A stretch of 64,000 nucleotides of DNA. Source: Bacteroidales bacterium. GTDB taxonomy: Bacteria > Bacteroidota > Bacteroidia > Bacteroidales > UBA10428. Positions 29,366 through 41,927 of the stretch are shown piece by piece. Numbering within the stretch: position 1 is the first letter of the stretch; each line of letters starts with the position of its first letter. Made by a program: the position numbers and the translations under genes. The notes beneath the pieces were generated by a model, which saw only the letters and a list, made by a program, of their open reading frames with translations, ran no database searches and was not told where the DNA came from. The stretch covers positions 1 through 64,000 of the forward strand of contig JAFGGU010000035.1 of the NCBI GenBank assembly GCA_016930375.1, in the 5' to 3' direction.

Positions 29366-30673
29366 ATGAAAAAACATCTTATTTTAATAATTCTGATAAC
29401 CGCAGGTGTCCTGCTTCAGGCACAGCAGGTATATCAACCAACTGAACAGAATCTTCGGAGCCGCACCTGGTTCCAGGACGCCAAATACGGTATGTTTATT
29501 CACTGGGGGGTTTATTCTGTGCTGGGTGACGGAGAGTGGGTTATGCATCAGCAACAGATCAACAGGAAGACTTACGAAAAGTTGCCCGCTTTTTTCAACC
29601 CTGTCGCGTATGATCCTGCTGAATGGGTTGCACTGGCCAAAGCAGCGGGCATGAAATACATAGTTATTACCAGCAAGCACCATGATGGTTTTGCCATGTT
29701 CGATTCAAAAATGACGGATTGGGATATTGTTGATCGAACCCCTTATAAAAAGGATGTTCTGAAAATGCTGGCTGACGAATGCCGCAAACAGGGTATCAGG
29801 CTTTTCTTTTACCATTCGCATCTTGACTGGTACCAGGATAACTATTTCCCCCGGGGTAACACGGGGCAGTATGCAGGCAGACCTGACCAGGGAAACTGGA
29901 ACGAGTATATCAGTTATTTGAACGGTCAGCTTACCGAACTTCTTACCAGTTACGGCGAAATTGGCGGGATCTGGTTTGATGGCTGGTGGGACAAAAAGAA
30001 TGCGGACTGGCAGCTTGAGAAAACCTATCAACTGATACATGACCTGCAACCGGGATGCCTGATCGGCAATAATCATCACCAGGTACCTAAGTCCGGTGAA
30101 GACTTTCAGATGTTCGAGAAGGACCTGCCCGGCTTTAATACAGCCGGACATAGCAGTGAATCACAGATTGGGTCACTTCCTCTTGAAACCTGCGAAACCA
30201 TGAATAACTCCTGGGGATTCAACCTCCAGGACAAAAGATTCAAATCTTCTAAGGGTCTCATTCATTACCTCGTAAAGGCAGCCGGATACAACAGCAATTT
30301 CCTGCTTAACGTCGGCCCCATGCCGAATGGCAAAATACAGCCTGAGTTCATGGATACGCTGAAAGCAGTCGGGAAATGGATGGATGAATTCGGTGAGACT
30401 ATATATGGTACGCGGCAGGGACCGGTTACTCCCAAAAGCTGGGGCGTTACAACACAAAAAGATAACAGGGTGTTCATCCATGTGTTGAATGCAGAAGATC
30501 GTAATTTATTTGTGCCAAAACTTGGAAAGAAGATTGCTTCGGTCCGTTTTTTTCATAGTAAACAACCGGTCATCTATTCGGAAAATAAGTATGGTGCAAT
30601 TTTTGAAATTCCTGCCAGTGTTACCGGTATGCCGGATATCGTGCTTGAGGTAACGCTAACTGGCGGCCGGTGA
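29366..30673 (+). CDS. Alpha-L-fucosidase, GH29
   Basis: A 435-residue exported glycoside hydrolase that removes alpha-linked L-fucose from glycans. A signal peptide (1-19, LLQAQ) is followed directly by the GH29 catalytic barrel: YGMFIHWGVYS at 41-51, SKHHDGFAMFDS at 103-114, and the catalytic nucleophile in IWFDGWWD, Asp205. A C-terminal beta-sandwich region covers about 345-435. It lacks any carbohydrate-binding module, so it is a short form. It stands alone, 10 bases from the convergent LOG-family gene. Together with the GH20 enzyme it suggests foraging on fucosylated, amino-sugar-bearing glycans, but no operon links them. Confidence 0.93.
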   Translation: MKKHLILIILITAGVLLQAQQVYQPTEQNLRSRTWFQDAKYGMFIHWGVYSVLGDGEWVMHQQQINRKTYEKLPAFFNPVAYDPAEWVALAKAAGMKYIVITSKHHDGFAMFDSKMTDWDIVDRTPYKKDVLKMLADECRKQGIRLFFYHSHLDWYQDNYFPRGNTGQYAGRPDQGNWNEYISYLNGQLTELLTSYGEIGGIWFDGWWDKKNADWQLEKTYQLIHDLQPGCLIGNNHHQVPKSGEDFQMFEKDLPGFNTAGHSSESQIGSLPLETCETMNNSWGFNLQDKRFKSSKGLIHYLVKAAGYNSNFLLNVGPMPNGKIQPEFMDTLKAVGKWMDEFGETIYGTRQGPVTPKSWGVTTQKDNRVFIHVLNAEDRNLFVPKLGKKIASVRFFHSKQPVIYSENKYGAIFEIPASVTGMPDIVLEVTLTGGR

Positions 30674-31346: not shown

Positions 31347-31763
31347 TTAATTGGTAGCACGTTCCTTTCTGACTACTTCACCCTTGATGACAAGAGCTGT
31401 ATTTCCCTCCTGGGCATTGGTAGTTACAATAATCGACTTGGTAAACACACCGGAGGCGGCAGCGTTAAAAGTCACGGAGATTTTTCCTGATTTTCCGGGT
31501 TGAACGGGTTCTTTCGGATAATCGGCAATGGTGCAACCACAGGTTGGCCTCACTGAACTGATGATCAAAGGAACCATGGTGGGATTCTGGAACTCAAATT
31601 CGGCCGCTACTGGTTTGCCTTGTTCGATTTTTCCAAAATCAATGGTGGTTGAGGTCCATGCCATTCCTGAAACCGGCTTTCTGGAATCCTGCGCATTTAA
31701 ATTGTTGGAGAAACCGAAAAGCATTACAGCCAAGAACAACGAGAAAAAGGATGTTATTTTCAT
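31347..31763 (-). CDS. DUF1573 exported protein
   Basis: A 138-residue exported protein with a signal peptide (1-24, NNLNAQ) and a single DUF1573 domain, an Ig-like/ASH-type beta sandwich common in Bacteroidota. The signature PTCGCTIADYPKEPVQPG lies at about 77-94, with the CGC pair. Function is unknown; related domains are thought to be envelope or adhesion modules. It is monocistronic, with a clear terminator downstream and a possible promoter close upstream. Confidence 0.88.
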   Translation of the reverse strand: MKITSFFSLFLAVMLFGFSNNLNAQDSRKPVSGMAWTSTTIDFGKIEQGKPVAAEFEFQNPTMVPLIISSVRPTCGCTIADYPKEPVQPGKSGKISVTFNAAASGVFTKSIIVTTNAQEGNTALVIKGEVVRKERATN

Positions 31764-31791
31764 GATGATGATTTTAAGTATTCGTTAATTA

Positions 31792-31799
31792 CAAAGTTC
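31792..31799 (-). promoter_or_regulatory. Weak -7-like box for the DUF1573 gene
   Basis: On the minus strand GAACTTTG matches seven of the informative positions loosely (A and TTTG of TAnnTTTG, first T missing), 28 bases before the ATG. A TTTTTG lies about 20 bases upstream of it. Low confidence because of the mismatch. Confidence 0.3.
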
Positions 31800-31904
31800 G
31801 CTAAAACTACGTTTTATCTGCAAAAATTGTTCCTAAAATTTAGTTAAAAATTTAAAATTGTTATCCGAAAACTTAATCCGGTCATTGGCAAACCCTGGTT
31901 GTTC

Positions 31905-31921
31905 ATCGGGAAACTCCCGAT
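31905..31921. other. Small perfect hairpin in the susC upstream region
   Basis: ATCGGGA (31905-31911) and TCCCGAT (31915-31921) form a seven-base stem with a three-base loop. It lies in the 352-base gap 31764-32115 between divergent DUF1573 and susC genes. It could be a protein-binding dyad or an RNA hairpin; no further evidence. Confidence 0.45.
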
Positions 31922-31952
31922 AGGAATTTTCCTCGCAAATCTTTTAATTTAC

Positions 31953-32094
31953 TTAAAACCAGGAAAAAAGGAATGCCGGAATACAAATTAAAATTTCAGG
32001 TTTATAATAGGTTAAGAGTTAGCGCCCAATACATCCCTCCAACAAAGTTTCCGGCATACCTTTTTCCTTCAAGTAGCCATTTTACTGGTTTTAA
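31953..32094. other. Long imperfect inverted repeat in the susC leader
   Basis: The left arm at 31953-31981 (TTAAAACCAG, then GGAAAAAAGGAATGCCGGAA starting at the last G) is answered on the opposite strand by TTCCGGCATACCTTTTTCC (32049-32067) and CTGGTTTTAA (32085-32094). The right arm carries a 17-base interruption between the two matching blocks. The arms bracket 67 AT-rich bases, and the right arm ends 21 bases before the susC ATG. It may be a structured 5' leader that hides the ribosome site, or a small invertible segment as found ahead of some susC genes. No recombinase gene is in the window. The rest of the 352-base gap shows only a small hairpin. Confidence 0.6.
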
Positions 32095-32115
32095 GGCAAC
32101 TGAAAAACTAAAACG

Positions 32116-35100
32116 ATGAGATTTATGAACAGAGCAGTAATGTTGGTTGTGTTTGTGGCAGTAACACAACTCATGTTGGCATTGATCCAACCTTATGCCT
32201 TATCAGCGCAGGACATACAAGTTTCAGGAATGGTCACTTCCTCTGATGATGGGAGTCCTCTTCCGGGGGTGTATGTAAAAATCAGCGGGACAAACAACGG
32301 TACAGCAACGGATATTGATGGCAAATTTCAGCTTTCAGTTCCTGCCAATGCAAAATTGTTATTTTCCTTTATTGGCTATAAAGAACAGGAAATTGAAGTT
32401 CATGGTCAGTCTGTGATTAACGTGGTGCTGGAAACAGATGTAACCATGGTGGATGAGGTGGTTGTTACCGCATTGGGAATCACCAAATCAAAAAAATCAC
32501 TGGGATATGCCGTGGCGGACTTCAGCAATGAGGATCTCGAAAACCGGCAGGTCATTGACGCTACACAGGCATTGACCGGAAGGGTGGCAGGCGTCTCCAT
32601 ATTTTCTACCTCCGGCTCTCCAGGGGCTTCCACAAGTGTCATTGTGAGAGGACTATCATCCATAACACAAAGTACCCAGCCGCTCTATATTATCGATGGG
32701 GTGCCGGTGAATAACCAATACGCAAGTGGCAACAGCACACAGGCCATGACAACGGCCAATTTAACCGTTGACTTTGGCAATGCAGCTTCTGATATAAATC
32801 CTGCAGATATTGAGACCATTAGCGTACTGAAAGGTGCTGCAGCTACCAGTCTGTATGGCTCACGTGCAGCCAACGGAGTTATTCTCATAACCACCAAGAG
32901 CGGGAAAAAGAATCAGAACCTGAAGGTCGATTTTTCATCTTCTTACACAGTAACGACAGTAGGCCGTTTACCCTATTACCAGAAACGGTTCGGACAAGGG
33001 TGGAGCGGACACTTTGCCTACGAGGAGAACGGCAGCTGGGGACCTGTAATGGACGGAGCCATGAGGTTAACGGGAAATGTGGTGGACAATTCACAGCGTC
33101 TTATGCCATTCAAGTTCCAGGAAAACGGTCTGCGGGACTTTTTTGAGTACGGCTCCGCTTTTAATAATGCCATCGCCATATCCGGCGGAACGGACAAGAT
33201 AGGATATTACGTCTCCTTTGCCAATACAACACAGGATGGAGTTATTCCGGGGGACGCTGACGTTCTGAACAGAAATTCTCTGACGGTAAAGGCCAATGGC
33301 GGCAATGAAAAAACCAGGATCAGCTTCAGCTCATCCTATACCAATAAAAAGATCAGCGCCGTGGCAACAGGCCAGGGAGATGATGCCGGCGGAGGAAAAG
33401 CTGTATTCCAGGAATTGCTCGGTACGCCGGTAAACCATTATATCCCTTTGTACAGGGATTACAACAATAAATTCGATAATCTGGATAATTACTTTAATTT
33501 ATATACACAGAATCCCTATTTCGTTATTAATGAAAATGGTAACGATTTTGAACAGGACAGACTGATCAGCAGTCTGGACCTGAGCCGCAAAATTCTCGGA
33601 GGTCTTAGTGTTTCCTGGAGAGGAGGAGTAGATCAGTACAGCAATTTCTACAAAAGGTATGGCGCGGTAACTCATAAAACTCCCGGCTCTCCCAATTCCT
33701 CCGAAAATGATGTGGCCGGCATGGTGAAAGAGGAGGGAAGGACCGTTAGCCAGTTGAATTCCGATTTGTTAATCACCTATGACGGTAAGCTCAATATAGG
33801 AGACCAATTCCTGGAATACAACATTGTATTGGGGAATAACATCAACCAAAGAACCTCTACCAGGCTAACAACTATTGCGAGGGGTCTTGTGGTTCCCGAA
33901 TACTATAGCGTTACCAATATCAGTGGGAGCGCCGATGTTTCAACTTACAGGGAAAAAAGGCGTTCAGTAGGGCTGTTTGGAACGGTCGCCCTGAATCTCG
34001 GGGATTTCCTTTTCGTGCAGTTTAGCGGGAGGAATGACTGGTCATCCACCCTTCCCAAGGAAAACAATTCTTTCTTCTATCCCGGTGTAAACCTGGGATT
34101 CATATTCTCCGAGTTTCTGCCCAAGGGATTTCTGACTTATGGAAAATTAAGGGCAGGATATGCCCTGGCCGGCAACGATGCTCCGGCGTATTCCCTGGAT
34201 CCGTTTTACCGCGCCGCCATTCTGCGAAATGGTGGTTACGGAGTTACCAATTATCCGGTTGGTGGGGTGGCTGCTTTTGAAAAATACCGGCAGCTGGGTA
34301 ATCCGAATCTGAAAAATGAGCTGTCCAAGGACTTTGAAATCGGAACAGAATTAAGGTTCTTCAGCAACCGCATAGGACTGGATCTGGCCTATTATAAAAA
34401 GGTAACCACTGATTTGATTTTTGATGCCACCATTGCCGGTTCATCGGGATTCGATATTCAGACAACAAACCTGGGGCAGATTACCAACAGCGGCATTGAA
34501 TTGAAACTGGATCTGAATCCTGTCAGATGGGGTGACTTCAGATGGGACCTGATCTATATCTATACCAAGGGCAACACCGTGCTGGACGAATTGTCGGCAG
34601 AACTGGGCGTTGAAGAATATGTGATAAACTCGGCCTATGAAACTGAATTTGTAGCCATACCGGGTGAACAATTGGGCCAGTTCAGGATACCGGATTACAA
34701 ATATTCACCAACCGGACAGGTTGTTGTTGGTGACAACGGACTTCCGCTGGAAGGTGAAAAAATACTCTATGCCTCGTCAGTTCCCGATTATAAAATGTCA
34801 CTCACGAATTCATTCTCATTCAAGGGTATAAACTTTTCCTTCTTATTTGATTATCAACAAGGTGGGCATATGTATTCCAATACGGCCAACAGTTGTTTCT
34901 GGAGCGGGAACAGTGAGCAATCCGTTACCAATGACCGGCGACCGTGGGTTATTCCCAATTCGGTCCGGGAAATTACGGATGAGGAAGGCGCTGTCACTTA
35001 TGTTGAAAATACCACACCTATCCTGGGCAACTGGCATGAGTACTATAACAGCAATACGAACAAGCCCATTGAAAGGAATAGAATCCTCGAAAAGACTTAT

Positions 35101-35343
35101 GTCAAACTTCGCGAAGTATCATTGAATTACAGTTTACCCGTATCGCTTGTGGAAAAGATAAAATTGACTACGATCAATGTCGGAGTATATGGCACCAATT
35201 TGTTTTTATGGACACCGGCATCAAACAGTTTTATCGATCCTGAAATGTCCACCTTTGGCAATGGCATTGAAGGACTTTTCGGCGAATTTGACGGTTTGCC
35301 GCAGACCAGAACGTATGGTGTAAAATTAAACGTAGTATTCTAA
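32116..35343 (+). CDS. SusC/RagA-type TonB-linked outer-membrane transporter
   Basis: A 1,075-residue outer-membrane receptor. The signal peptide ends near residue 32 (ALSAQ). Then come a carboxypeptidase-regulatory-like beta-sandwich (about 36-108, ending SVINVVLETD), a TonB-box-like DEVVVTALG near 114-122, the plug domain (about 128-255, with VIVRGLSSITQ and SRAANGVILITTKSG), and a 22-strand barrel to the C-terminus GVKLNVVF. It would import a ligand captured by the partner SusD lipoprotein using TonB energy. The ligand is unknown, as no polysaccharide-degrading enzyme is in the operon. The downstream order (SusD, BT_2262-like lipoprotein, lipid-binding-type lipoprotein) is the operon's frame. 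The start codon lies just after a long inverted repeat. Confidence 0.94.
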   Translation: MRFMNRAVMLVVFVAVTQLMLALIQPYALSAQDIQVSGMVTSSDDGSPLPGVYVKISGTNNGTATDIDGKFQLSVPANAKLLFSFIGYKEQEIEVHGQSVINVVLETDVTMVDEVVVTALGITKSKKSLGYAVADFSNEDLENRQVIDATQALTGRVAGVSIFSTSGSPGASTSVIVRGLSSITQSTQPLYIIDGVPVNNQYASGNSTQAMTTANLTVDFGNAASDINPADIETISVLKGAAATSLYGSRAANGVILITTKSGKKNQNLKVDFSSSYTVTTVGRLPYYQKRFGQGWSGHFAYEENGSWGPVMDGAMRLTGNVVDNSQRLMPFKFQENGLRDFFEYGSAFNNAIAISGGTDKIGYYVSFANTTQDGVIPGDADVLNRNSLTVKANGGNEKTRISFSSSYTNKKISAVATGQGDDAGGGKAVFQELLGTPVNHYIPLYRDYNNKFDNLDNYFNLYTQNPYFVINENGNDFEQDRLISSLDLSRKILGGLSVSWRGGVDQYSNFYKRYGAVTHKTPGSPNSSENDVAGMVKEEGRTVSQLNSDLLITYDGKLNIGDQFLEYNIVLGNNINQRTSTRLTTIARGLVVPEYYSVTNISGSADVSTYREKRRSVGLFGTVALNLGDFLFVQFSGRNDWSSTLPKENNSFFYPGVNLGFIFSEFLPKGFLTYGKLRAGYALAGNDAPAYSLDPFYRAAILRNGGYGVTNYPVGGVAAFEKYRQLGNPNLKNELSKDFEIGTELRFFSNRIGLDLAYYKKVTTDLIFDATIAGSSGFDIQTTNLGQITNSGIELKLDLNPVRWGDFRWDLIYIYTKGNTVLDELSAELGVEEYVINSAYETEFVAIPGEQLGQFRIPDYKYSPTGQVVVGDNGLPLEGEKILYASSVPDYKMSLTNSFSFKGINFSFLFDYQQGGHMYSNTANSCFWSGNSEQSVTNDRRPWVIPNSVREITDEEGAVTYVENTTPILGNWHEYYNSNTNKPIERNRILEKTYVKLREVSLNYSLPVSLVEKIKLTTINVGVYGTNLFLWTPASNSFIDPEMSTFGNGIEGLFGEFDGLPQTRTYGVKLNVVF

Positions 35344-35360
35344 AATTTAAATATAAGAAG

Positions 35361-36881
35361 ATGAAGCACTTTACTATCATATTGAGCTTATTGTTCTTTG
35401 GCCTGTCAGGATGTGATGAATTCCTGGATGTAAATGAAAATCCGAATTTTCCCGACGACGTCGAAGATTATTTGTTGCTGCCTTCTGCCCAGGCAGGGGT
35501 TGCTGGTGTTATGAGCGCGGATTATGGCCTGATCGGGTCGTTTTGGGCACAGCACTGGGCACAAAACAATACATCATCTCAATACCAGACATTTGAGACC
35601 TATACCCTCAGTAGCAATGATAACAGGGTGGATGGCTCCTATCTTTCGATGTACAGGGATGGTCTGGGTGACAATGAAATCATTCATAAGAAGGCAGAGC
35701 AGGAGGAAAACTGGGGCCTTTATCTGATGACTTCCACGCTAAAAGCCTATGGATTTCAGTACCTGGTTGATTTTTATGGGAATGTACCCTATGATGAGGC
35801 ATTCAAAGGGGAAGAGGGGAATTTCACACCTGTTATTAATACGGGAGAACAGGTCTATGCCTCCATTTATGAATTGCTGAATACGGCACTGGAGAAAGAT
35901 CTTGATGGTTTTGCAGCTGCCAGGTACCGCCAGTATGATGTATTGCTGGATGCCGATATAGATGACTGGGTTGATTTTGCCAATACCATGAAACTTAGGA
36001 TAATCTTAAGACAGTATGCAGCCAATACAGCCTGGGCCAATACAGAACTGACCAATTTACTGGCTGAGGGTACATTTTTGACCCGGGATGTTGCGCTGAC
36101 CAATTTCGAAGATGTGGACAGCTAATCAAATCCGTTGTTTGAAGCCGATCAGCGCCAATTAAATACCGCCCAGAATATCAGGGCCTGCGCAACCTTCACC
36201 ACTTATCTGAAGGCAAATAATGATTCAAGGTTGCAGGCGCTTTTTGCAGTCATTGGTGGCAACATCGATGGCATAATTCCGGGATCGTATGAAATACCAA
36301 CAACGCAATGGATGGCGCCTGATGTTATCTCAAAGCCATTTTTAACCGCTACCATGCCGGTTTATTTGATGACTGTGGCTGAAACCAACCTTTTGCTGGC
36401 GGAAGCTTACCTGAGGCTGGGTGATATACCTGCAGCGGAAAGCCATTACAAAGAGGGCGTAATCAGTTCATTTGCCCGCATGGGAGCCGATACCACCGGC
36501 ATGCATTTGTTTTCAACCGTGTACCCATTCCCGGCCACCGATTTCAATGCCCGGTTAAAGGCTATCATTATGCAGAAATGGGTTGACGCCGCTGAAGGTC
36601 AAAGAGGCGCTGAGGCTTTCCTGGAACGCGTAAGAACCGGTTACCCGGAGCAGGCTGCACCCGAAGTTCAGAGCGAAATTCCGGAAGGGCGGGAATCGGA
36701 TCTGCCTGCATCATACATTCCCGGGACTTTAATCTACAGTAAAAAGGGCGCATCCAATGGCAATTTCCCTGTCAGGCTGCCTTATCCCGACAGCGAATTA
36801 AACTTTAATATCAATGCAGCTGCATACAAGGATATCCCGGATGCCACGGTTATGCAGACTAAAGTATGGTGGAACCAATAA
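35361..36881 (+). pseudogene. SusD/RagB-type lipoprotein, interrupted by in-frame TAA
   Basis: A SusD/RagB-family nutrient-binding surface lipoprotein of about 506 residues, with lipobox LSGC (Cys18) and VNENPN at the mature start. The reading frame has a TAA at 36123-36125, after codon 254. The very same frame then continues (SNPLFEADQRQLNTAQN) without gap to the normal C-terminus at 36879. Both halves match one continuous SusD-like protein, so one base substitution explains it; a frameshift does not. TAA ends many other genes here, so it is not a sense codon. A TTG at 36135 is not a believable restart for an exported protein. Either the gene is dead, or the base is a sequencing or assembly error or a strain variant. 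The start lies 17 bases after susC. Confidence 0.85.
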
Positions 36882-36892
36882 TATTTAATGCT

Positions 36893-37642
36893 ATGAAACT
36901 CAGAAAATCAATGTATATATTATTCGCAAGCCTCCTGTTGCCATTTATGGGTTGCGAAAAGGAATATGAAGACGAATCGGGCATTACCTTTTTCCCTGTT
37001 TTTGAAATGGAAGGTGAATCGGAAATGATTCATACCATCGGAGTGCCCTATACCGATGGCAGTGTAACTGCAACAGAGGACGGAAACCCTCTGGATGTCA
37101 GGGTCAGCGTAATTGGTGAATTTACAGGTTATAGCGGAACGACAGTGGATGTGGATGTAATAGACAAATATGTAATCAGCTATGCAGCTACCAATGCGGA
37201 TGGCTATGAGGGTGTAGCCACCCGGACCGTCTTCATTGCTCCGCCAAACGAAGATATGGTGACCGGACTGGAAGGCGTTTATCTGGCCAATGTTCAAAGA
37301 ACACCTGCCTTTGCTGTTTTACCCCAATACAGTGATATGAAGTACGTTTATATTCTCAAAACAGGCGACAAGACCTATGAGTTATCCTGTGCACTGGGTG
37401 GGTACTATTCTATCGGACGAGCTTACGGAACTGATTTTGCTTTCCAGGGGGCTGTAATAACCGCCAATGATATCCCGGCCAATAACTTTACCATAAGCCA
37501 GGCAACTGCCCCGGGATTCGGGAATGTGGCTGACATTTCTTCATTTACCGTTGATGCGGTTAATAAAAGAATCACATTTACGAGTACCGCAGATTTTGAC
37601 AACGGGGTTTTTCATGTACAACTGGAACAAGTTCAATATTAA
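36893..37642 (+). CDS. SusE-position lipoprotein, BT_2262/HYR-like
   Basis: A 249-residue surface-type lipoprotein with lipobox PFMGC (Cys21). An N-terminal Ig/HYR-like beta domain (about 35-115, YVISYAATNADGYEGVATRT) is followed by a C-terminal beta domain (about 120-249). This resembles BT_2262/DUF5011-type proteins found in SusCD operons, which extend from the surface and may help hold ligand. The assignment is by operon position and the HYR-like pattern; ligand unknown. The ATG at 36893 starts the signal peptide; an earlier frame at 36866 overlaps susD and is not used. It lies 11 bases after the susD stop. Confidence 0.7.
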   Translation: MKLRKSMYILFASLLLPFMGCEKEYEDESGITFFPVFEMEGESEMIHTIGVPYTDGSVTATEDGNPLDVRVSVIGEFTGYSGTTVDVDVIDKYVISYAATNADGYEGVATRTVFIAPPNEDMVTGLEGVYLANVQRTPAFAVLPQYSDMKYVYILKTGDKTYELSCALGGYYSIGRAYGTDFAFQGAVITANDIPANNFTISQATAPGFGNVADISSFTVDAVNKRITFTSTADFDNGVFHVQLEQVQY

Positions 37643-37653
37643 AAGCAAAACCT

Positions 37654-38169
37654 ATGAAAAACAGTATAATATTTCTGTTGATTACCGTCTTTCTGTTTAC
37701 ATCCTGCGATCTGAAAGATGATTTTGAGAATGAGGAATCACCGCTGGTGGAAATGGCCGGAGAATGGTATGTCCATTACGATCATAACGTTTATGGCCCT
37801 GATCCTTTCGGGGCTGGCTATACAAGGGTAGTAACCTACAACACATCCGCCGATGACGGCAATGAGATGTGGATCAATGACGAGGGCAATTTCTGGACCT
37901 ACCAGGTAAAAATACCCGTTGACCTGACAACCCTGACTTTTGGCAGTCAGGATACAGTGATCAATTATATCGATGGGTATGATATTAAAGTACTAGTCAG
38001 GAATGGCAAAATTATCAAGGATGCATCAACACGGGAATCCGGCGCAATTGCCGACAGCATTTATTTCGAAATGTGGTTTGAGGATCTGGAAGGCTCTACA
38101 GGAATTGCCGGAGATACACTGATTGTTTCGGGTTACCGAAGAACCGGATTTCTGGAAGATGAACCCTAA
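37654..38169 (+). CDS. Lipid-binding-type (PF12888-like) lipoprotein
   Basis: A 171-residue lipoprotein with lipobox LFTSC (Cys18) and a single lipocalin-like beta domain. The stretch EMAGEWYVHYDHN near 34-46 and the C-terminal DTLIVSGYRRTGFLED are typical of the Bacteroidota family named lipid-binding putative hydrolase. No hydrolase motif is evident. It ends the susCD operon, 11 bases after the previous gene and 11 before the terminator at 38181. It may form part of the surface uptake complex. Confidence 0.72.
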   Translation: MKNSIIFLLITVFLFTSCDLKDDFENEESPLVEMAGEWYVHYDHNVYGPDPFGAGYTRVVTYNTSADDGNEMWINDEGNFWTYQVKIPVDLTTLTFGSQDTVINYIDGYDIKVLVRNGKIIKDASTRESGAIADSIYFEMWFEDLEGSTGIAGDTLIVSGYRRTGFLEDEP

Positions 38170-38180
38170 ATGAAGCATTG

Positions 38181-38210
38181 AAAGGCTGTCCAAAAAAGAC
38201 AGCCTTTTTT
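38181..38210 (+). terminator. Intrinsic terminator of the susCD operon
   Basis: AAAGGCTGTC and GACAGCCTTTTTT form a stem of ten pairs with a seven-base A-rich loop, followed by a T-run. It begins 11 bases past the last stop codon of the operon. Confidence 0.92.
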
Positions 38211-38246
38211 CATGTTGTCACAAAATGTTCGTAATCGCACACTACA

Positions 38247-38274
38247 TGTACCGGAATCGGACACATCCGGTACA
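38247..38274. promoter_or_regulatory. Perfect 9-bp inverted repeat, possible operator
   Basis: TGTACCGGA (38247-38255) and TCCGGTACA (38266-38274) are exact reverse complements with a ten-base centre. The element lies about 215 bases before the TPR histidine kinase start. A dimeric regulator site is possible, for example for the LytTR protein, whose sites are usually direct repeats. The rest of the 318-base gap 38170-38487 holds the terminator, a weak -7-like box AATATTTG (38345-38352) and nothing else seen. Confidence 0.4.
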
Positions 38275-38487
38275 GATTTCACGCACCACTTTGCCGATTA
38301 TTTATATATTTATCAGATTACTAGCTATATAACCTGAATGGTATAATATTTGCATTTATCTCGTAATCAGTTAATTATCTTGATTAAAATGTAGAAAGCG
38401 GAGTAGGGTATTTCATGTATCAGGGATCATAGTAAAAGAGGCGGTTCAGGTACTTGTATTCAACACGATAATGCGGAGAAAACAACA

Positions 38488-40461
38488 ATGAAACTTATCT
38501 TCATTAGAATTATAACCTGTTATGCCCTGGTGTTTTTAACCGGACTCGCACCTGTAAATGGCACCATTGATTTTGATGACTTTAAAACTGAACCTCTGCA
38601 GGATACCGGTAAACTTAAAACCCTATATGATTCGGCCAGGTTCTATTCAAGAATTGATCCGGTTCTCAGCAAAAATTTGCTTCGCAAACTGATTGCCATT
38701 TCCAAAAGCAAGGATAGCAGTGAATTGTATGATTACTATACTTTATTCGGAAATGCGTGCGTGGTGAATGGTGAATTCGATGAAGCGCAATATTATTATG
38801 GCAAATCACTTGCCATTGACAAGGAACGAAAGGATACCCTCGAACAGATCAGGGTTTACAATAACCTGAATTATCTCTATTTGTTATCGGGAAAACTTGA
38901 TCTTTCGTTGCAGAGCGCGCATGAAGGTGCCAGGTTGATTGAGATCATGAAACAGGGTGGAAGTTTACCCTCTTCTATGAAGCAGTTTGGCGACAAAAAA
39001 TCGGACTGGGTGGAAGCCTACTTTTATACCAATATCGGACAGATTAATATGAAAGTTGGCAACTATAAAGAGGCTCTTTATTACTACCAAAGGGCGCTTT
39101 CGAGTGTTGAAACAAGCGGGGATAAGATTTATTATGCAAGTGCGCTGAACGACATGGCCCTTGCATACAGGCAGCTGAAACAGTATGATCAGGCTCTTGC
39201 CTGTATTCAAAAAGCATTGACGATCAACAAGGAAATTGACAATGAATTTGGAGTTGGGCTGAATTATCAAATTCTGGGTGATATTTATGCGCAGACCGAG
39301 GACCTGACCAGTGCGCGAACACTTCTCGACGAGGGGATGGAAATCCTTGAAAAATCAGATGATATTAATGCGCAATCCTTGACCCTACTGAGTATTGTTG
39401 ATGTGGAAATTAAATCAAAGCAATTCGACAAAGCCCGGAAGAACCTTGATAAATGCTTCGACCTGGTTAAAATGTCAAATGATCTGAGGACGCTGAAAGA
39501 CTATTATTATTACAAATTCAAGCTGGATTCCTTCCAGAACAAAAACCAGGAGGCCATGGCAAGCTATATCCGGTATCATGAGCTGGATAAACAGATCATC
39601 GATGTCCAGCTGAGCCAGCGCATTGCAGATATCCAGACAACCTATGAGATGCAGCGGAAGGAACAGGAAAACAAACTGCTTAAATCGGAGAATGAGGTGC
39701 AGAAGATCAGGATCAACAAATCCAGGACCATTCTGATCGCTTTGTGTGGAATCTTTGGTCTGATCTTCGTTATAACACTTTTGGTGGTCAGACATCAGCG
39801 GTTATTGACCCAACACAAGATTATCGAGCTGAAGCAAAAGAATCTGAATCAGCAGATGAATCCTCATTTTGTATACAACTGTCTGACCTCCATTCAATCC
39901 TATATCTTCCACAACGATACCCCTAAATCGCTGGAATACCTTTCCAAGTTCTCGAAACTCATGCGCAAAATACTGGAAAGTTCACAAAATCAATACATGT
40001 CGGTGCAGGATGAAATTGAAATGTTGTCACTGTATCTTAAACTGGAATCAGTAAGGTTCAAGGGAAAATTCGACTACGACATTTTTGTGGATGAAAAGAT
40101 CGACCCCATTCTTTTTAAAATACCATCCCTGTTGATACAGCCTTTTGTTGAAAATTCACTTTGGCATGGTATCCAGAACAAGCAGGGAAAAGGAAGGATA
40201 CAGGTATCCTTTAACCTGGCAGACAAGTCCATTTTCTGTGCCATTGAGGACAACGGAATAGGAAGGGAAAATGCTGAAAAGATTAAAAACAGCCGGATAA
40301 CCAATCACATTTCACTGGGAGGTTCCATCACCCAGACCCGGATGAAACTGCTAAAGTCTTTGTACGGAAGCAGACTCGGGATTCGCTATATCGATCTGAA
40401 AGACAATGAAAATAAGCCCTCAGGGACTCGTGTCGAATTGTTTTTACCCATACTGAATTAA
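38488..40461 (+). CDS. TPR-containing LytS/His_kinase-type sensor kinase
   Basis: A 657-residue sensor kinase. A signal peptide (1-26, APVNG) is followed by a periplasmic domain of about six TPR-like helical repeats (about 60-360, one being GDYKEALYYYQRAL-like), then a coiled coil and one membrane helix (about 413-434, LIALCGIFGLIFVITLLVV). The cytoplasmic transmitter is of the PF06580 LytS/YpdA type, with NQQMNPHFVYNCL and phospho-acceptor His460, and an ATP-binding part with QPFVENSLWHGI and EDNGIGREN. The partner LytTR regulator follows after 11 bases. Signal unknown; TPRs hint at a protein ligand. Its place after a susCD operon suggests, but does not prove, control of that operon. Confidence 0.92.
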   Translation: MKLIFIRIITCYALVFLTGLAPVNGTIDFDDFKTEPLQDTGKLKTLYDSARFYSRIDPVLSKNLLRKLIAISKSKDSSELYDYYTLFGNACVVNGEFDEAQYYYGKSLAIDKERKDTLEQIRVYNNLNYLYLLSGKLDLSLQSAHEGARLIEIMKQGGSLPSSMKQFGDKKSDWVEAYFYTNIGQINMKVGNYKEALYYYQRALSSVETSGDKIYYASALNDMALAYRQLKQYDQALACIQKALTINKEIDNEFGVGLNYQILGDIYAQTEDLTSARTLLDEGMEILEKSDDINAQSLTLLSIVDVEIKSKQFDKARKNLDKCFDLVKMSNDLRTLKDYYYYKFKLDSFQNKNQEAMASYIRYHELDKQIIDVQLSQRIADIQTTYEMQRKEQENKLLKSENEVQKIRINKSRTILIALCGIFGLIFVITLLVVRHQRLLTQHKIIELKQKNLNQQMNPHFVYNCLTSIQSYIFHNDTPKSLEYLSKFSKLMRKILESSQNQYMSVQDEIEMLSLYLKLESVRFKGKFDYDIFVDEKIDPILFKIPSLLIQPFVENSLWHGIQNKQGKGRIQVSFNLADKSIFCAIEDNGIGRENAEKIKNSRITNHISLGGSITQTRMKLLKSLYGSRLGIRYIDLKDNENKPSGTRVELFLPILN

Positions 40462-40472
40462 AACCCTAACCA

Positions 40473-41219
40473 ATGCTTAAAACTATAGTTATAGATGATG
40501 AACCGGATGCCATCGATTTCCTTTGCGGGGCCATCAACCAATACTGCCCTGATACCAGGGTGGTTGGCTCATCTACCAATATTACCGACGGTTTGATTGA
40601 GATAGCAGTCAAGAATCCGGATATCGTTTTCCTGGATATTGCCATGCCGTCGGGAAGTGGCTTCGAGTTGCTCAATCGGTTACCCGACCGAAGTTTTGAG
40701 GTTATCTTTGTGACTGCCTACAATGAGCATGCCATACAGGCGTTCCATTACAGTGCCATTGACTACCTGCTGAAGCCGGTTGACATTACTGAACTGGTAT
40801 CAGCAGTAAATAAAGTTACCAGATCCATTAAAAGAAGCCAGTTGAATATGGTTAGCGTGTTGCTCGACAATTTGAGATCCGGTTCGCCAAACAAGCTTTC
40901 TTTGCCAACAACCATGGGGTATGAATATGTTCTCATTGAGGATATTATCCGGATTGAGGCTGAACGGAGCTATTGCTGCTTTTACCTTACACAAAAAAGA
41001 AAATACCTGGTTTCCCGATGTCTGAACGACTATCATCTTCTGCTTGACAACAACCACTTTTTCCGAATCCACAATTCCCACCTGGTCAATTTGCGACATG
41101 TGAAATCTTACATGCGAAAAGACGGCGGCTATGTTGAAATGTCGGATTCTTCGCAGATCCCTGTCTCCCGAACCAAGAAAGATTTCTTCCTGAATGCGAT
41201 AAAACAGCATGTAGTATAA
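40473..41219 (+). CDS. LytTR-family response regulator
   Basis: A 248-residue response regulator. The receiver domain (about 1-120) has the acidic pair Asp8-Asp9, phospho-acceptor Asp55 (VFLDIAMPSGS) and the conserved Lys in YLLKPVD near 108. The C-terminal LytTR DNA-binding domain (about 150-245) has RIEAERSYCCFYL, FFRIHNSHLVNLRHV and PVSRTKKDFF. It follows the TPR kinase by 11 bases and is surely its partner. LytTR proteins bind pairs of short direct repeats upstream of their targets; targets here are unknown. Confidence 0.95.
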   Translation: MLKTIVIDDEPDAIDFLCGAINQYCPDTRVVGSSTNITDGLIEIAVKNPDIVFLDIAMPSGSGFELLNRLPDRSFEVIFVTAYNEHAIQAFHYSAIDYLLKPVDITELVSAVNKVTRSIKRSQLNMVSVLLDNLRSGSPNKLSLPTTMGYEYVLIEDIIRIEAERSYCCFYLTQKRKYLVSRCLNDYHLLLDNNHFFRIHNSHLVNLRHVKSYMRKDGGYVEMSDSSQIPVSRTKKDFFLNAIKQHVV

Positions 41220-41270
41220 ATCACAACTTTTTCTTCAAAAATATTTTGTGGATTTAAAAATTTGATTTAA

Positions 41271-41316
41271 TTTTGACCAGTTGGTTAAACCAAATGATTT
41301 AATTAAATGGTCAAAA
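41271..41316. promoter_or_regulatory. Nested dyads at the tetR start, probable autoregulatory operator
   Basis: TTGGTT-A-AACCAA (41281-41293) is a perfect dyad with an odd centre. It overlaps TTGACCAGTTGGTTAA, a 16-base dyad with one mismatch (41272-41287). An outer pair, TTTTGACCA (41271-41279) and TGGTCAAAA (41308-41316), runs into the start codon. Overlap with the start and the presence of a TetR gene make an operator for self-repression of the efflux operon the simplest reading. Confidence 0.6.
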
Positions 41317-41927
41317 CCCCTGAAACGCATTCCCAATCCACTGAGAATAAGATTCTCGAAGCGGCTAAGAAAGTCTTCATACTCCATGGACTGGAAGGCA
41401 CCAGCATGCAGCAGATCGCCAGTGAGGCCGGTATCAACAAATCGTTGCTGCACTACTATTTTAGAACCAAGGAAAAACTCTTTGACGCGGTTTTTACGTA
41501 TGCCTTCCACTATATCGTGCCCCAGATGGAAGGTATCCTGAGTTCAGACAGTGGTATTAATGACAAAATTGAACGAATTGTAACTGAATATATGGATATG
41601 TTGTCAGAGAACAAATTCATTCCCGCTTTCATACTGCATGAGATCAACAGGAACCCCGACAGGTTATACAACATTATGCAAAAATCCGGGATAAAGCCTG
41701 AAATGTTTGTCAACCAGTTTGTTAATGAGATTCAGCAGGGGAATATCCGACCAATTGATCCACGACAACTGATCATCAACATCCTGTCCATGTGTATTTT
41801 TCCGGTTGCAGCCAGACCTTTAATACAGAGGATCTTCTTCGGAAATAATGAAAACGCCTATCGTCAATTTCTGGAGGAAAGAAAAAAAGTAGTCAGTGAA
41901 TTCATTATCCAATCTATAAAGCCCTGA
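41307..41927 (+). CDS. TetR/AcrR-family transcriptional regulator
   Basis: A 206-residue repressor-type regulator. The N-terminal helix-turn-helix (about 14-60) has ILEAAKKVFILHGLEGTSMQ, then QIASEAGINKSLLHYYFRTK. The C-terminal ligand-binding domain is variable, as usual. It heads the efflux operon: the TolC-type gene starts one base after its stop. It likely represses the operon until an inducing compound binds. A nested dyad over its start (41271-41316) is a likely binding site. Ligand unknown. Confidence 0.93.
   Translation: MVKTPETHSQSTENKILEAAKKVFILHGLEGTSMQQIASEAGINKSLLHYYFRTKEKLFDAVFTYAFHYIVPQMEGILSSDSGINDKIERIVTEYMDMLSENKFIPAFILHEINRNPDRLYNIMQKSGIKPEMFVNQFVNEIQQGNIRPIDPRQLIINILSMCIFPVAARPLIQRIFFGNNENAYRQFLEERKKVVSEFIIQSIKP

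Follow-up and report, generated by a model that had tools for sequence, protein, structure and literature searches.

An inverted repeat upstream of a Bacteroidales susC gene as the stem of a hairpin carrying a putative antisense seed against other susC leaders

What is the role of an inverted repeat that ends immediately before the start codon of a susC gene? Such a repeat is located on the plus strand of the 64,000-nucleotide stretch of a Bacteroidales genome analyzed here (the window). A sequence-only reading had suggested three meanings for it, namely a leader RNA stem, the target of a regulatory RNA, or an invertible DNA segment. Here, we propose a reading based on comparison with related genomes: the repeat probably encloses an antisense sequence directed against the leaders of other susC genes.

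The inverted repeat and the downstream module

The repeat was confirmed at the position given by the earlier reading, and its end at 32094 is 21 bases upstream of the susC ATG at 32116. On the plus strand, it is composed of a 5' outer arm (TTAAAACCAG, 31953–31962), a 5' inner arm (AAAAAGGAATGCCGGAA, 31965–31981), a 3' inner arm (TTCCGGCATACCTTTTT, 32049–32065), and a 3' outer arm (CTGGTTTTAA, 32085–32094). The outer arms were assigned from the window sequence and the fold, the 5' inner arm from the window sequence and flank complementarity, and the 3' inner arm from the window sequence. The TTTTT end of the 3' inner arm forms a terminator-like T-run (32061–32065). The inner arms are 17 nt each and 94% complementary with a spacer of 67 nt, and the gap between the 3' inner and 3' outer arms is approximately 19 nt. 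RNA folding of 31940–32120, which the earlier reading had proposed as a check, gave -37 kcal/mol with a z-score of -2.47, and 2 of 200 shuffled sequences folded equally well. The flanks of the loop core showed a complementarity of -28.6 kcal/mol, which was matched by 1 of 1000 dinucleotide shuffles. At ~67 nt, the loop is longer than is usual in intrinsic terminators, and a simple scan of the window hairpin detected no terminator. No promoter of the TAnnTTTG type was seen in the 75 nt preceding the loop core, and an Rfam scan of the window stretch and 11 loci gave no match at the gathering score. The 191-bp hairpin stretch is present as one copy in its own genome (a 112-contig assembly listed as 85% complete); a MITE or other mobile palindrome was ruled out by this single copy.

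The hairpin is the first element of a plus-strand module (31858–41252), which the related genome G009 lacks at the corresponding site. BLAST of window regions 31641–31990 and 41151–41500 against G009:C85 showed that the homology ends at ~31857 and resumes at ~41253. The DUF1573 and TetR genes adjoin each other in G009, whereas 9.4 kb of extra module lies between them in the window. According to Pfam, the module encodes, all on the plus strand, SusC, a TonB-dependent transporter with CarboxypepD_reg-like, Plug, and barrel domains (32116–35343); SusD (SusD-like_2, 35361–36881); a surface Ig-like/BT_2262-like protein (36866–37642); a Lipid_bd (PF12888) protein (37654–38169); and a sensor kinase with TPR and LytS-type (PF06580) domains (38488–40461). 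A LytTR response regulator gene follows (40473–41219, plus strand). Reading of the susD ORF revealed one in-frame TAA at 36123–36125; the frame is otherwise open and both halves match SusD families, and a nonsense mutation and an assembly error are indistinguishable here. An alpha-L-fucosidase (PF01120) gene is located near the operon (29366–30673).

Loop seed and susC leaders in related genomes

When 60 related genomes were searched at the DNA level, the loop (about 31987–32021) matched sequences close to susC genes, most of them in the opposite orientation. The loop seed (AAATTTCAGGTTTATAATAGGTTAAG, 31991–32016, plus strand) matches, in reverse complement and with one mismatch in the AAATTTC part, a leader sequence that is conserved at the translation-initiation site of susC in the relatives. 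In the family of the window, the sequence TTAACCTATTATAAACCTAAAATTT...TCTATGAAAAG corresponds to this leader and the beginning of a susC gene, and the direct leader precedes a different susC in 17 of the 23 genomes of the family. The distance from the start of the motif TTAACCTATTATAAACCTAAAA to the susC ATG is 29–30 nt at all 17 direct loci. TAnnTTTG is the consensus of the Bacteroidota -7-like box, and such a box was found 40–62 nt upstream of the motif at 16 of the 17. Because of the fixed distance to the ATG and the upstream box, the motif at the direct loci most likely sits in the mRNA leader beside the start codon. The conservation extends into the first codons of susC. A DcuC/AbgT-like transporter gene adjoins the direct-locus susC in 8 of the 17 loci within the stretches compared; these calls are based on N-terminal likeness, with a Pfam check on one such protein. 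The leader of the window susC itself lacks the direct motif. The earlier suggestion that the repeat is the target of a regulatory RNA was thus right as to the kind of element, but the direction is reversed, and the loop appears to be the antisense seed against other susC leaders.

The loci were compiled in two sets. The first comprised 28 places, consisting of 16 direct leaders, four hairpin copies, four stand-alone copies, and four places excluded for having no susC context (G039, G027, G016:C20, and G005:C27); the motif place in G016:C20 lies at the terminator of another gene. The second set, with 33 places listed, contributed a direct leader in G010, a hairpin in G018, and four stand-alone copies; G015:C80, G011:C153, G017:C83, G016:C106, and G009:C120 were left out. 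G015:C80 has a direct-like motif before another susC-type ORF and was omitted from the counts. An order-wide search detected a motif match in 9 of 393 genomes. The matches in G195 and G404 were inspected and then left out, and among 13 named stretches, those in Chryseobacterium and Olivibacter were taken as chance.

A partner for the window copy was sought in its own genome. With up to 3 mismatches of 21 allowed, the search of this 85%-complete assembly turned up no direct leader. The best susC-like partner had a duplex energy of -22.4, compared with a background best of -23.4 among 53 ORF starts of the window. Taken together, the pattern search, the listing of susC-like matches, and the duplex energies gave no convincing partner in this genome, and a susC gene on its contig C18 has a partial motif only. 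A close relative of the direct-leader susC was not found there, nor was the DcuC neighbor in a search that had no positive control. The target of the window copy may be encoded in the portion that the assembly lacks, or the genome may have none; the failure to find one is the chief weak point of the case for the window copy.

Hairpin loci, stand-alone copies, and predicted pairing

Five loci carry the antisense motif in the loop of a hairpin that precedes a susC: the window, G003:C414, G004:C22, G006:C39, and G018:C127. The core lies 78–120 nt from the susC ATG and always in one orientation relative to that gene, and in each of the five a T-run follows the 3' arm on the plus strand. The arm sequences differ among the loci, those of the window and G004 being most alike. 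Because the arms in a MAFFT alignment of four hairpins were too loosely aligned for pair counts, a shuffle test of the flanks was used instead. In the five hairpin loci, 1, 6, 1, 0, and 1 of 1000 shuffles were as good as the natural flanks. The flank complementarity was ordinary in 15 of the 17 direct loci, with lower counts in G010 (4/300) and G017 (18/300). The retention of a hairpin with differing arm sequences at five loci supports the leader RNA stem that had been suggested for the window repeat. The seed is approximately 40–60% unpaired in the predicted folds. Upstream promoter boxes were sought for the hairpins and the stand-alone RNAs, and none was convincing. The G018 genome resembles that of the window in that it has a hairpin copy (G018:C127) and no direct leader was found in it within 2 mismatches.

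The surroundings of the hairpins are partly conserved. A LOG-family protein and DUF1573 are neighbors common to the window, G003:C414, and G004:C22, and the susC genes of these three loci are only distantly alike. Homologues of the window kinase follow susCD at G004:C22 (65% identical over 214 residues) and G006:C39 (40% over 376), in both cases in the N-terminal TPR part, and a TPR protein follows at the G018 hairpin locus. The susD families differ between the window and G004, and the susCD genes flanked by the hairpin and the kinase gene have apparently been swapped between the two. The hairpin and the kinase look like a constant part, for which susCD would be an exchangeable cargo.

Stand-alone antisense copies were found at eight loci (G000:C4, G007:C67, G003:C324, G001:C111, G005:C50, G004:C26, G046:C19, and G014:C126). 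A strong stem followed by a T-run, that is, an intrinsic terminator, lies 3' of the seed on the seed strand in 8/8 and on the other strand in 0/8, with 0–3 of 300 shuffles being as good. None of the 17 direct leaders has a terminator on the antisense strand. The copy at G000:C4 belongs to the window's own genome and shares neighbor genes with those in G007 and G003; the core seeds of the three copies are identical and their terminator stems are different. This sRNA-like locus (G000:C4:23588-23608) consists of the seed TTTTAGGTTTATTTTAGGTTAGTG and then the terminator, and is kept in G003 and G007. Both the own genome and G003 carry a hairpin copy together with a stand-alone copy.

At the sRNA-like locus G014:C126, part of the seed is antisense to the susC start-codon region (TTCTTTTCATAGG). 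In this copy, TTCTTTTCATAGG is joined directly to the leader antisense, with the intervening spacer skipped. In G046, which belongs to another family of the order, the RNA carries the variant ACAATAGG and a susC leader of the same genome carries CTATTGTAAACC. Two further genomes of this family have the same kind of RNA. In this family, a conserved RNA with AGGTTTACAATAGGTTA and a terminator occurs in G046, G254, and G331, and a susC leader of G046 matches the AGGTTTACAATAGGTTA-type RNA with a 2-nt insertion.

Pairing was calculated between the antisense RNAs and the direct leaders of the same genomes. The hairpin RNAs gave -46.6 (G003), -42.3 (G004), and -40.0 kcal/mol (G006), and the stand-alone RNAs gave -36.9, -30.4, -31.9, and -33.0 kcal/mol. 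In seven of the eight same-genome tests, 0 of 500 shuffled leaders paired as well. The exception was the stand-alone RNA of G004:C26, which paired weakly with the leader of its own genome (107/500 shuffles as good). Pairing of the core is partly by construction because the loci were found through the motif, and the extensions beyond the core are independent of the search. The G003 hairpin pairs via ATTTTATC of the leader, beyond the 21-nt search motif; the G014 RNA covers the antisense of the start-codon region; and the leader and RNA of G046 share a base variant. As a counterpoint, the own-genome leader ranked first among the 17 leaders for only three of the eight RNAs, and the ranks for the remaining RNAs were 4, 5, 6, 8, and 15.

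Proposed mechanism and comparison with known systems

On the sequence evidence, the probable explanation is an antisense RNA that acts in trans; it would arise from the susC leader or next to it and block translation of another susC. The inverted repeat would form the stem of a hairpin in an RNA that runs in the same direction as susC, presumably under the control of the LytS/LytTR pair of the operon, and the antisense sequence would be displayed in the loop. Transcripts ending at the 3' arm and the T-run would be short, at roughly 110–130 nt, and read-through past the T-run would yield the susC operon mRNA. Termination or processing at the T-run would free the antisense RNA, which could then pair beside the start codon of another susC and block its translation. 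Turning on one importer could in this way turn off another. What the sequences themselves show in favor of this mechanism is the hairpin, a loop that is antisense to the leaders, the conservation of both in other genomes, and the long same-genome pairing in G003, G004, and G006.

If the 21-nt motif were a DNA operator bound by a transcription factor in either orientation, its occurrence upstream of susC genes in both orientations would be accounted for, and the flanking inverted repeat would have no role. However, the direct motif lies downstream of a -7-like box at a fixed distance to the ATG and is conserved into the first codons, and the antisense copies are found in hairpin loops or directly before terminators. 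An operator is therefore quite unlikely. The constant placement of the hairpin upstream of susC and the T-run after every 3' arm also fit an attenuator acting only in cis, in which the hairpin terminates its own susC operon, the loop senses another susC leader, and no trans RNA is released. The stand-alone copies, with their own terminators and no neighboring susC, suggest that the seed works away from the leader, and attenuation as the sole function is unlikely. The strand of the T-runs is informative for a further explanation, a decoy, in which a minus-strand RNA would mimic the susC leader in its loop and titrate the stand-alone antisense sRNA. Hairpin and stand-alone copies do coexist in the own genome and in G003, but the T-run is on the plus strand in all five hairpins, and on the minus strand it is absent in G018 and broken in G003. 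A decoy is thus very unlikely.

An invertible DNA segment was the first lead. Invertons are phase-variable susC promoters in Bacteroides, with inverted repeats upstream of susC. The window resembles them in having 67 bp enclosed by inverted arms before susC, and the core is found in the opposite orientation before other susC genes. This lead was dropped because the opposite copies proved to be the leaders of other susC genes at other loci, 15 of 17 without notable flanking repeats. The window also differs from invertons in showing no sign of a flipped state, as all five hairpin copies have one orientation. Moreover, the arms would be expected to be conserved if they were recombinase sites; they differ between loci, and a Pfam scan of 16 window proteins identified no recombinase. 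The invertible segment of the earlier reading is highly improbable.

The trans-acting antisense RNA may have a wider meaning, which we put forward tentatively and consider doubtful at present: the leader of one uptake operon would double as the antisense RNA, within a constant LytS/LytTR frame in which the susCD cargo is swapped. The LytS/LytTR pair would turn susCD on, and some of the transcripts would stop at the hairpin and silence a competing susC elsewhere. The constant frame with exchanged susCD would mean that the order of preference among importers is encoded in the leader RNA.

Antisense sRNAs that target the starts of susC genes are already known. The FopS sRNAs of Bacteroides thetaiotaomicron are antisense RNAs that act on the translation-initiation regions of susC-like mRNAs (PMC11697453), GibS acts likewise on those of other mRNAs (PMC7366714), and the DonS-type RNAs of Bacteroides PULs are cis-antisense RNAs encoded divergently to their own susC (PMC7366714). 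The system proposed here resembles FopS and GibS in antisense action in trans on translation-initiation regions, in the presence of several loci per genome, and in the presence of an RRM protein; the stand-alone forms share, in addition, the order of a seed followed by an intrinsic terminator. Seeds complementary to a susC translation-initiation region were found in G003, G004, and G006. In FopS and GibS, as described, the seed is at the 5' end of an sRNA of 65–70 nt, whereas the window seed is in the loop of a long hairpin before another susC; the window copy is not a ~65–70 nt RNA with a 5' single-stranded seed. The host also differs, the window system being found in a family of environmental Bacteroidales, and FopS was compared by description only. 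The likeness to DonS is an antisense RNA acting on susC. The window seed is not divergent or antisense to the susC next to it, unlike the described DonS arrangement; it is on the strand of the neighboring susC and matches a different susC. No report of a susC leader hairpin with an antisense seed against another susC was found in the open PMC papers searched.

Control of susC translation by a family of antisense sRNAs was described only recently, in gut Bacteroides (PMC11697453). The environmental Bacteroidales family would represent an independent or ancient version, in which targets and both stand-alone and leader-borne RNAs are visible in the genomes. The system offers a direct way to test the choice of importer at the translation step in bacteria with many SusCD importers. 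The proposed mechanism also fits the one RRM_1 protein of 94 aa that the window's own genome encodes (G000:C48:54335-54544), which is similar in kind to RbpB, the RRM protein linked with the FopS/GibS sRNAs.
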